From: a virus
Reading direction: 5' to 3' (one strand)
DNA: 38,548 nucleotides
Virus record (IMG/VR): IMGVR_UViG_3300002052_000016
Coordinates: 1-38,548 of that record
The position numbers and the translations under genes were made by a program. The notes beneath the pieces were generated by a model. It was given only the letters and a program-made list of their open reading frames with translations, did not search any database and had not been told where the DNA came from. This document shows, one piece after another, positions 5,558 to 25,086 of the stretch (positions are counted from its first letter, which is position 1; the number at the start of each line of letters is the position of its first letter).

Positions 5558-5902
5558 TTATTTATCCATGATGATCTCGATCGGCTTGCCCGCTTCATTG
5601 AACAAATCGATCGTGTTTTTCGTTCCCCGGCTCTTCCCATCCCAGAACGCAATACCGCGATCGGAGATATCCACGATAACTACATTGCGCAGTGGCCCGG
5701 CCGCTTTGCCGAATGCATCCCAATTCGGGTAAACAATTATCCACATTAACCCGTATTGCTTCGCCGCCGATACCGCGAACGTGTCGACTCCCTTCGCTCC
5801 CCCGCTGACGATCACGGTATCTCGCGGCAGTGACGCGACCATCGATAAAATCAACGTCGGGTCCGCCCATGTTCTGCTACCAACGATCGCAACTCTTTCC
5901 AT
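5558..5902 (-). CDS. SLOG-superfamily (DUF2493/YspA-like) nucleotide-binding protein, 114 aa
   Basis: The N-terminus MERVAIVGSRTWAD is a Rossmann-like first strand with a glycine loop, followed by DTVIVSGGAKGVDTFA, the hallmark GG-x-x-G-x-D loop of SLOG/DprA-like folds, and AAGPLRNVVIVD. The length equals that of stand-alone DUF2493 proteins. Members bind nucleotides or nucleotide derivatives; the substrate is unknown. The start has the cassette GGGGAATAGATAAA. In a region with a DUF4406-like protein and an Acb2-like protein, a role in host nucleotide signalling is possible (inference). Confidence 0.8.
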   Translation of the reverse strand: MERVAIVGSRTWADPTLILSMVASLPRDTVIVSGGAKGVDTFAVSAAKQYGLMWIIVYPNWDAFGKAAGPLRNVVIVDISDRGIAFWDGKSRGTKNTIDLFNEAGKPIEIIMDK

Positions 5903-6858: not shown

Positions 6859-7051
6859 GCTGCGCATCCCTCGCTTTCATTTTATCTTCCATGTGCATGA
6901 ACTTCCGGCGTATCCCGGTCATCGGTTTACTACCCAAGAAATGACCCCATGAAACATCACTAGATAACTTCCGGAGTAGATAAAGTAATGCTTTCACCTC
7001 TGCGTCGGTGAAACTGTTGGCAAGCGGAAGGCGCGGTTTACTTGTCGCCAT
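6821..7051 (-). CDS. hypothetical protein, 76 aa
   Basis: I take ATG 7051 (MATSKPRLPLANSFTDAEVK) because it overlaps the end of the upstream gene in the manner usual here; no strong ribosome site is seen, so translation may be coupled. The C-terminal 25 residues are very charged and hydrophilic. Not recognised. Confidence 0.55.
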   Translation of the reverse strand: MATSKPRLPLANSFTDAEVKALLYLLRKLSSDVSWGHFLGSKPMTGIRRKFMHMEDKMKARDAQHEATKDDGTGKG

Positions 7052-7418
7052 AGATAATCTTGCGAATTCGTGCGAGGGCTGTTTCGTATGAATCATCTCT
7101 CGACAAGTTATCGATCAGTTCTTTGACCTCGTGTAGCTGCGCCCACGCATCGCTGATATCCGGCACCCGCACCGCTTTGATTTTATCGTTTATTTCATCG
7201 ATCTGCCATTCGTACAGCGGCGCAGTCATCCCCTCTTCGACCAGTTCGAATTCATACGAATAGGCAAAATATTCGATGTATGGCCCGAAAAAATTAGATT
7301 CAGCCTTTATGATAATGCATTTAGCCATTATCTTAAAAAGCAATTCGTTTCCCCATGACCAGATCAGATCAGCATTGATCCGAAACCGGCCGATCCGTTT
7401 GCGCAGATCGTCATCCAT
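7038..7418 (-). CDS. hypothetical protein, 126 aa
   Basis: The start ATG 7418 overlaps the stop of the Acb2-like gene (TAATG). A longer upstream frame would run antisense to nothing useful and overlap that gene fully, so I reject it. The protein is acidic with mixed secondary structure; SNFFGPYIEYFAYSYEFELV is an aromatic-rich strand region. It is co-transcribed with the Acb2-like gene. Function unknown. Confidence 0.6.
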   Translation of the reverse strand: MDDDLRKRIGRFRINADLIWSWGNELLFKIMAKCIIIKAESNFFGPYIEYFAYSYEFELVEEGMTAPLYEWQIDEINDKIKAVRVPDISDAWAQLHEVKELIDNLSRDDSYETALARIRKIIYGDK

Positions 7419-7618
7419 TACTTCGGCTCCCGATAAATCAACGCCCGAACAGCGCAGTCTTTTGCTTCGAGCAGTTTGCGTAGCGCTGCCGTGCGCTCCG
7501 GATTGCTGGGAAGCGTTGCTGCGAGAGACTTCGCCAGCTCGCAAAACGGTTTAGATACGAGTTGCAAAGGCGAAGGCAAATGCTCGTACTCGAAAAACTG
7601 TAGCATCCTATCTTCCAT
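7418..7618 (-). CDS. Acb2/Tad1-like helical hairpin protein (candidate anti-CBASS/anti-Thoeris sponge), 66 aa
   Basis: The 66-residue protein has the layout FFEYEHLPSPLQLVSKPF, CELA, then LPSNPERTAALRKLLEAKDC, AVRA. The two-helix pattern with ...LP.NPER..ALRKLLEAKD.AVRA at the end is one I associate with the Acb2/Tad1 hairpin family, which sequesters cyclic nucleotide signals of CBASS and related defences. This is from memory of the family pattern, not a database search. It is the first gene after terminator-like hairpin 7672-7704 and promoter-like motif 7655-7665, and has an AAGGGATAGATAAAA start cassette, so it may be expressed independently. Confidence 0.55.
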   Translation of the reverse strand: MEDRMLQFFEYEHLPSPLQLVSKPFCELAKSLAATLPSNPERTAALRKLLEAKDCAVRALIYREPK

Positions 7619-7654
7619 TTTTATCTATCCCTTCGTTAATGCCCATATTGTTAT

Positions 7655-7665
7655 ATACCCGATAA
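7655..7665 (-). promoter_or_regulatory. candidate phage promoter motif TTATCGGGTAT (copy 2)
   Basis: The minus strand reads TTTTATCGGGTATATAACA, with TATATA/TATAAC as -10-like boxes, 37 bp before the ATG of the Acb2-like gene and just after a strong terminator hairpin. This terminator-promoter order is the clearest case for a promoter role of the motif. Confidence 0.55.
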
Positions 7666-7671
7666 AACAAT

Positions 7672-7704
7672 GGCCCGGCTCCCTCTTTCTGCGGGAGCCG
7701 GGCC
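7672..7704. terminator. strong hairpin terminator, 12-bp stem
   Basis: GGCCCGGCTCCC at 7672-7683 pairs perfectly with GGGAGCCGGGCC at 7693-7704 around a nine-base loop. On the minus strand it is followed by ATTGTTTTATC; on the plus strand a T5 run comes eight bases later, so it could act both ways. It separates the 63-aa gene from the Acb2-like gene. Confidence 0.8.
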
Positions 7705-7717
7705 AGTAGTCCCTTTT

Positions 7718-7909: not shown

Positions 7910-7952
7910 TGTTTCCGAGCCTACCAGTTTACTTTTTCAATTACAAATAACT

Positions 7953-7963
7953 ATACCCGATAA
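7953..7963 (-). promoter_or_regulatory. candidate phage promoter motif TTATCGGGTAT (copy 3)
   Basis: The minus strand reads TTATCGGGTATAGTTATTTG, three bases after the TAA stop of thyX and 44 bp before the ATG of the 63-aa gene. TATAGT is the -10-like box. Confidence 0.5.
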
Positions 7964-7966
7964 ATC

Positions 7967-8596: not shown

Positions 8597-8930
8597 TTAT
8601 CGACTCCGCATGATCACCGTCGTCCACGGCTTTGAAATGTCGTTTCGGATGAATGCCCTCGACAAATTCGACTAGGGCAAGATGCGCTATATCGACTAAA
8701 CATTCTAAATTGCCTGTTTCATTATACTCGATAATAATTCGCTGAATATACGACATGCGATCGAACTGCGGTTTTCCTTTCGAGCCAAGCCTGCCATATC
8801 GATACGATCCCATTACAAGCCGATTTCGCATCAACTGTTCAAACTCGTATGACCATTCCGACCATTGGCGCATTATCAAATCTCCCAAGTAGAGAAGTCG
8901 ATAACGAATATGCTCTGTAACTGTTTTCAC
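8577..8930 (-). CDS. hypothetical protein, 117 aa
   Basis: The GTG start overlaps the upstream stop (GTGA). The arrangement YIQRIIIEYNETGNLECLVD followed by IAHLALVEFVEGIHPKRHF resembles a pattern I recall in phage and plasmid proteins of unknown function (TGN-x-E-xLVD ... EF ... HP). It ends 20 bp inside thyX, so the two are coupled. No enzyme can be assigned. Confidence 0.65.
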   Translation of the reverse strand: MKTVTEHIRYRLLYLGDLIMRQWSEWSYEFEQLMRNRLVMGSYRYGRLGSKGKPQFDRMSYIQRIIIEYNETGNLECLVDIAHLALVEFVEGIHPKRHFKAVDDGDHAESINASNQT

Positions 8931-11744: not shown

Positions 11745-11753
11745 ACTCTATAC

Positions 11754-11764
11754 ATACCCGATAA
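11754..11764 (-). promoter_or_regulatory. candidate phage promoter motif TTATCGGGTAT (copy 4)
   Basis: The minus strand reads TTATCGGGTATGTATAGAGTATGG. The ATG of the 65-aa gene is only ten bases beyond the motif, which would give a nearly leaderless transcript. It stands six bases after the stop of the 11771-12121 gene. Confidence 0.4.
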
Positions 11765-11770
11765 ATCGGA

Positions 11771-12200: not shown

Positions 12201-12218
12201 GATCATGGCAATTGATCT

Positions 12219-12229
12219 ATACCCGATAA
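12219..12229 (-). promoter_or_regulatory. candidate phage promoter motif TTATCGGGTAT (copy 5)
   Basis: The minus strand reads TTATCGGGTATAGATCAATTG, three bases after the stop of the 12233-12985 structural gene and 98 bp before the next ATG. The long leader contains two hairpins. Confidence 0.5.
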
Positions 12230-12232
12230 GGG

Positions 12233-24604: not shown

Positions 24605-24616
24605 TGCATAGTAATT

Positions 24617-24627
24617 ATACCCGATAA
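24617..24627 (-). promoter_or_regulatory. candidate phage promoter motif TTATCGGGTAT (copy 6, with consensus TATAAT)
   Basis: The minus strand reads TAGTTATCGGGTATAATTAC: the motif runs into a perfect TATAAT -10 box. It directly follows the stop of the 24628-25086 gene and precedes the endolysin leader. Best single argument that the motif is a promoter core. Confidence 0.6.
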
Positions 24628-25086
24628 CTACTCCGATGCGAGATGCTGCGCATCGAGCGCTTGCCCCGCTCGATCTAGCACTGTTACGACCGCTTGCGGA
24701 TTATCTTCTCGTTCGTTTTTCCTGAAAGCAACCGCAACCTCGAATCGTGTATTATCAGTCTTCCGCGTAACCCCAATAACTAGATAAAGTTCATCTTCTC
24801 TGAGACGATCTACCGACTTCTCCGCTGTCGCTTTTTCCTTCACATCCCATTTGATCGACCAATCCCGCGACTCGAAAAATCCAATAAGCCAATCAAAAAC
24901 CAGTTGCCGGAATTCGGGAGTAGTCCATTCGTCGCCTTGCCTTCGTTCCCACGGTAGTCCCTTAATATCGGGCGCGTGCATAAAGCCTTCGGGCAACGGT
25001 CCCGGCCCCTCGGGCTTCAACTCTCCCGAATTGGTAAACGGTTGCCGCTGTCTCGATGGGCGAATATCTCTGCTTCTAATTGTCAT
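24628..25086 (-). CDS. hypothetical protein, 152 aa (paralogue of 25076-25495)
   Basis: Proline-rich N-terminus (SGELKPEGPGPLPEGFMHAP) then an alpha/beta domain: WTTPEFRQLVFDWLIGFFES ... DELYLVIGVTRKTDNTRFEV, AVAFRKNE. The block DNTRFEVAVAF is matched by DNREFEVGLPF at the same place in the adjacent gene, and both have a helix with W and FL/FF before and an Ala-rich final helix. Function unknown. Overlaps the upstream gene by 11 bp. Confidence 0.65.
   Translation of the reverse strand: MTIRSRDIRPSRQRQPFTNSGELKPEGPGPLPEGFMHAPDIKGLPWERRQGDEWTTPEFRQLVFDWLIGFFESRDWSIKWDVKEKATAEKSVDRLREDELYLVIGVTRKTDNTRFEVAVAFRKNEREDNPQAVVTVLDRAGQALDAQHLASE

Follow-up and report, generated by a model that had tools for sequence, protein, structure and literature searches.

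The question raised by this locus is whether the small helical protein encoded at 7418-7618 belongs to the Acb2/Tad1 hairpin family and, if it does, whether it acts as a sponge for a nucleotide-type signal, as had been proposed from the letters of the DNA. The window, that is the whole stretch of DNA analysed, is one 38,548-base record of a tailed virus. Its minus strand encodes terminase, portal, family A DNA polymerase, RecA, RuvC and a CHAP-type endolysin, and a ThyX gene lies upstream of the hairpin gene. The window gave no Rfam match at the gathering score and no tRNA. The features discussed below are the following:

7418..7618, minus strand: 66-aa helical-hairpin protein (PHROG 1761/5120), placed here as sister to the Acb2/Tad1 hairpin family
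7038..7418, minus strand: 126-aa protein, sharing one base of its start codon with the hairpin gene (TAATG)
7629..7634, minus strand: Shine-Dalgarno-like GAAGGG, 10 nt before the ATG, read from the sequence
7654..7666, minus strand: TTTATCGGGTATA, candidate phage-specific promoter motif by inferred function, 35 nt upstream of the ATG
7671..7705, no strand: perfect inverted repeat with 13-bp arms and a 9-nt loop, probable terminator or boundary hairpin
2868-2880, 7654-7666, 7952-7964, 8723-8735, 11753-11765, 12218-12230 and 24616-24628, minus strand: 13-bp copies of the TTTATCGGGTATA type

The hairpin gene reads on the minus strand from an ATG at 7618 to a TAA at 7418-7420, and a frame check found two stops on the plus strand across 7418-7618. 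The sequence-only reading had placed the gene and its length of 66 residues correctly, leaving the strand unsaid, and the pattern that it quoted, NPER..ALRKLLEAKD.AVRA, is present in the translation. The ORF is a real, conserved gene, since tblastn (E ≤ 0.01) matched 325 of 50,697 phage records, the best at 63-68% identity and 309 of them over at least 80% of the query. Further members were found in at least 590 stretches of viral contigs (out of 600 candidates), in 119 of 227 candidate stretches of bacterial genomes and in 24 of 72,556 plasmid records (10 named Acinetobacter, 20 predicted to be non-mobilizable), some of which may be phage-plasmids. The protein thus belongs to a large family without assigned function. 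The gene is labelled 'hypothetical protein', left unannotated or, once, covered by an overlapping 'endopeptidase Rz' in the best 60 phage records, none of which carries a sponge annotation. Searches of an open-access library, outside which subscription papers mostly fall, brought up no title or abstract describing the family as a sponge.

The HMM search that had been suggested as a check did not connect the protein with the Acb2/Tad1 family directly. Against PF24729 (Acb2_Tad1_hairpin, curated cut-off 27 bits) the window protein gave no match at E ≤ 0.1. None of 73 family members scanned passed the cut-off, three matching weakly (best E 0.044), and gp27 of Brevibacterium phage AGM3 reached 16.4 bits, under the 27 bits required. 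Among 50 records, 48 of them with the hairpin family, PF24729 passed its cut-off only in T4 and Rhizobium phage RHph_N2_6. Direct searches of Pfam, NCBIfam and PADLOC with the window protein gave nothing usable.

Since direct HMM matches were absent or sub-threshold, PF24729-type proteins were collected for a profile comparison from bacterial genomes over the cut-off (1/197, 11/299 and 1/197), and a further 80 viral loci, all related to one of these proteins, were added. Alignment A1 was made without eight of its own 80 viral loci (L003, L006, L010, L024, L033, L052, L054 and L055), which were duplicates or had a broken frame or a long insertion. The PF24729 set excluded L178 (stop inside), L191, L092 and L093, and the dropping of identical rows brought it from 92 to 82; alignment A3, without L175 and other genome loci, had 51 rows. 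When 161 sequences of the hairpin family were compared by hhalign with the 82 PF24729-type sequences, the score was 31.6-32.8 and the probability 87-90%. The 300 column-shuffled controls had a mean of 10.2 (sd 2.35) and a maximum of 18.6, the reversed-profile controls scored 7.4 and 8.6, and 84 unrelated real families drawn from these phage and prophage loci reached at most 17.5, the test having skipped any family of fewer than three or more than 40 loci. Separately built alignments gave the same register, with a probability of 57.7% for a narrow set and 83.6% for a diverse one.

The PHROG matches run in both directions. The window protein matched phrog_1454 at E 0.0014 and AGM3 gp27 did so at E 3.9e-6. 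All 42 of the PF24729-type sequences searched matched phrog_1454, and 10 of the 42 matched phrog_1761, the family of the window protein itself (best 2.5e-4). The PF24729-type profile moreover reached Acb2 homolog 43 (9ptq) at E 0.0014 and Tad1 at E 0.0066, over residues 89-108. The profiles of the hairpin family had no significant match to the solved Acb2/Tad1 structures: 9ptq appeared only at E 0.51, below the unrelated Dps, and was absent among the matches listed for a more diverse profile. A relation to Dps itself was rejected, as its weak matches cover one helix pair and its E-value went from 0.048 to 0.51 with the more diverse profile.

The AlphaFold2 monomer of the window protein, modelled from a 73-sequence alignment, had a mean pLDDT of 95.6 and helices at residues 4-9, 16-35 and 40-61, in agreement with the helical hairpin expected earlier. 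A PF24729 member modelled likewise (L192) had helices at 3-8, 18-39 and 44-66. With the helix layout defined as in PMC12043709, the two monomer predictions follow one plan, a short helix followed by two long antiparallel helices. In a search of BFVD the top six matches (28-56% identity) look like the hairpin family itself, and at ranks 7-29 there were 15 entries out of 23 named Acb2/Tad1 hairpin; as their E-values ran from 0.025 to 2.1, weight is placed on this pattern and not on any single match. Foldseek and VIA-align searches of the PDB with the window model had no Acb2/Tad1 protein among the matches listed. The method is weak for this fold, yet the L192 control, searched by Foldseek, placed T4 Vs.4 first, at only E 0.28, so that the absence counts mildly against an Acb2/Tad1 assignment. 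Helical hairpins occur in many proteins, and sharing such a fold does not establish function.

Taken together, the controlled profile comparison, the two-way PHROG matches, the matching predicted topology and the BFVD ranking make common ancestry of the hairpin family and PF24729 well supported, though remote. We would place the window protein in a sister family of the Acb2/Tad1 hairpin and not within Acb2 itself, since it misses the PF24729 cut-off and most of the other residues invariant or nearly so in that family, the aromatic position apart, are replaced. The sequence-only reading is thus partly supported and had named the right superfamily. It was to be given up if both a family hit and a hairpin prediction failed; the direct family match is absent and the hairpin is predicted.

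The Acb2/Tad1 hairpin (PF24729; PHROG 1454 and 717) is known from T4 Vs.4 (7uq2), PaP2 p26 (8h2j) and Acb2 homolog 43 (9ptq). Besides the homology at profile level, the window protein has in common with it the character of a small stand-alone phage protein, a predicted layout of three helices, the first short and the other two long and antiparallel, an aromatic residue at the Y8/Y11 position, a P..(x)E(K/R)(S/T) turn and an L..A pattern. It differs in falling under the Pfam cut-off, in having four residues fewer between Y11 and helix 2, and in that most of the other invariant polar residues are exchanged for another near-invariant set. Tad1 (Thoeris anti-defense 1; 7uav, 8smd) carries a C-terminal helical hairpin of the same superfamily, whereas its N-terminal beta domain is absent from the window protein and the profiles of the window family give no direct Tad1 match. 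Acb4 and Tad2 are nucleotide-signal sponges, the functional class proposed here for the hairpin family, and PMC11722364 finds no structural homology between Acb4 and Acb2, Tad1 or Tad2. A relation of the hairpin family to Acb4 or Tad2 was neither found nor expected.

The residues that may form a ligand pocket were compared next to mutational data on T4 Acb2, for which PMC12657218 and PMC12657230 state that Y8A abolishes cyclic-dinucleotide binding and PMC12657230 that a change of T68 to M lowers binding. Y11 of the window protein aligns with the ligand tyrosine, Y8 of T4 Acb2 and Y11 of PaP2, and about 95% of 160 sequences have an aromatic residue there (Y in 78%, F in 10% and W in 7%). T4 T68 aligns with T51 of L192 (T in 96% of PF24729 sequences) and with R47 of the window protein (R in 98%). 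R26, R44, W59, N61 and R66 of PF24729 (98-100% conserved; L192 numbering) correspond to S22, P40, C55, V57 and Y62. The near-invariant residues of the hairpin family are H13, R47, K48, E51, K53, D54 and R58, and by their spacing residues 47, 51, 54 and 58 would lie on one face of the last helix. The conservation of this helix is partly a retrieval effect and its near-invariance inflated, because KLLEAKDC was one of the patterns by which the stretches of viral contigs and bacterial genomes were retrieved. Eight members derived from tblastn keep R47 in 7/8, K48 in 6/8, E51 in 8/8, K53 in 7/8, D54 in 7/8, C55 in 4/8 and R58 in 7/8 cases.

The genomic placement of the gene is variable. In some phages it lies near late genes, beside portal, downstream of the major capsid gene or between minor tail genes; elsewhere it follows holin, follows Rz and precedes terS, or follows DNA maturase B. 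Other places are between the genes for topoisomerase and RNA ligase 2, behind a gene for a DNA repair exonuclease, and beside an HNH gene where small genes, DNA-binding proteins among them, lie together. Among 160 loci compared, relatives of any neighbour in the window, the family itself apart, occurred in two at most. These varied insertion places in unrelated phages and the unshared neighbours fit a self-sufficient accessory gene moving between phages, as is expected of counter-defence genes, and are no proof of function.

Several members depart from the simple architecture. Four viral loci (L002:3827-4189, L027:3743-4183, L048:3632-4186 and L050:3812-4183) are extended in frame at the N-terminus and have the motif MGQAFD...RE/DVF in common there. 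These fused forms had raised the suspicion of an N-terminal domain like that of Tad1; a PDB search with L050 gave nothing convincing. The best viral structure match in BFVD, A0A6G6XYP8 of Ochrobactrum phage vB_OspP_OH (122 aa, 'Anti-TRAP domain-containing'), suggests a hairpin fused to another N-terminal domain. Two loci, L010:4001-4231 and L087:1501-1728, have an insertion of at least 12 or so residues in the turn between the long helices. In Brevibacterium phages 2T, 5T and 8C the matched stretch is longer and annotated 'repeated sequence in phage genome', which suggests a tandem duplication inside the gene.

In the reading that we prefer, and to which we would assign about an even chance, the hairpin protein is a stand-alone accessory sponge which descends from the ancestor of Acb2/Tad1 and has a ligand of its own, a nucleotide-type signal. 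It would form an oligomer, perhaps a hexamer like those of Acb2 and Tad1; pockets lined by the aromatic position 11 and by the charged residues along one face of the last helix would hold a small signal of nucleotide type, and the captured signal would be kept from the host immune effector. The ligand is probably other than the one preferred by Acb2, since the set of pocket residues differs, T68 of T4, the change of which lowers binding, being among those replaced. Against such a sponge stand the lack of a direct significant match to PF24729 or, by family profiles, to solved Acb2/Tad1, the PDB fold search without Acb2/Tad1 for the window model, the arginine at the T68 position, and a last helix more conserved than a protein in an arms race would need, even if part of this is due to retrieval. 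That the protein is instead a canonical Acb2-like hexamer, sequestering 3'3'-cGAMP and cyclic trinucleotides exactly as Acb2 does and merely diverged in sequence, would agree with the homology, the fold and the retained aromatic residue equivalent to Y8/Y11. This is unlikely, and less likely than a sponge with its own ligand: the exchange of R26, R44, T51, W59, N61 and R66 for S22, P40, R47, C55, V57 and Y62 and the missing Pfam PF24729 match speak against it.

The same fold could also serve another job, the charged face of the last helix binding a conserved host protein or nucleic acid and not a small ligand, which would cover roles in host take-over or as inhibitor or adaptor. A conserved partner would suit the very strong conservation of R47, K48, E51, K53, D54 and R58 across phages and prophages of many bacterial phyla, and the fusion of some members to other N-terminal segments is in line with it; the common ancestry with ligand-binding hairpins and the conserved aromatic residue next to the N-terminal helix weigh on the other side, and we regard it as a minority possibility. 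A virion or packaging accessory protein might be thought of from the portal, major capsid and minor tail genes next to which the gene lies in several phages, but its position is inconstant, after lysis genes, after DNA maturase, between topoisomerase and RNA ligase genes or with DNA-binding proteins, and such a role is very improbable. Returning to the sponge with its own ligand, it is tempting to speculate that, next to Acb2 and the hairpin of Tad1, these proteins form a third large branch of hairpin sponges, spread over phages of many bacterial phyla, whose conserved pocket would receive an immune signal that neither of the other two prefers. We hold this extension tentatively; if true, it would mean that some nucleotide-based defence signal is widespread and has so far had no phage sponge assigned to it. 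The placing of a family of hundreds of phage records next to Acb2/Tad1 makes it testable with existing binding assays, and a putative pocket that is uniform within the family and unlike that of Acb2 predicts a single ligand for all members. Should this ligand prove to be an immune signal, the family would rank with the broadest of phage counter-defence proteins; otherwise the hairpin fold has been turned to another use.

The 126-aa ORF downstream is probably co-translated with the hairpin gene, to judge from its start inside the TAATG overlap, so that the coupling claimed in the sequence-only reading is plausible. The further suggestion that both proteins share a function found no support. The 126-aa protein has no convincing family in Pfam, PHROG, NCBIfam or PADLOC, no relatives in the viral contigs searched, and weak matches in four of 50,697 phage records. 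Rhodobacter phage RcZahn carries both its best weak relative and a hairpin gene, about 12 kb apart, and therefore the pair is not a fixed unit.

The hairpin gene had also been said to possess its own terminator-promoter boundary. The inverted repeat at 7671-7705, in a 112-nt region with a folding z of -4.75, and the recurring motif at 7654-7666 speak in part for such a boundary, whereas general-purpose scans called no sigma-70 promoter and no terminator there. The TTTATCGGGTATA motif occurs in seven copies in the window at two mismatches or fewer, against 0.62 expected, and none of 100 shuffles reached seven. All seven are on the coding strand and six sit 8-85 nt upstream of the start of a minus-strand ORF, an arrangement suggesting a promoter specific to the phage. 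No other locus scanned contained the exact 12-bp core.

About 1.5 kb downstream of the hairpin gene, the minus strand encodes at 5558-5902 a stand-alone SLOG-type protein of 114 aa (Pfam YAcAr/YspA, also DprA). Because domains of the SLOG type bind nucleotides as ligands, this gene too may be connected with signalling.
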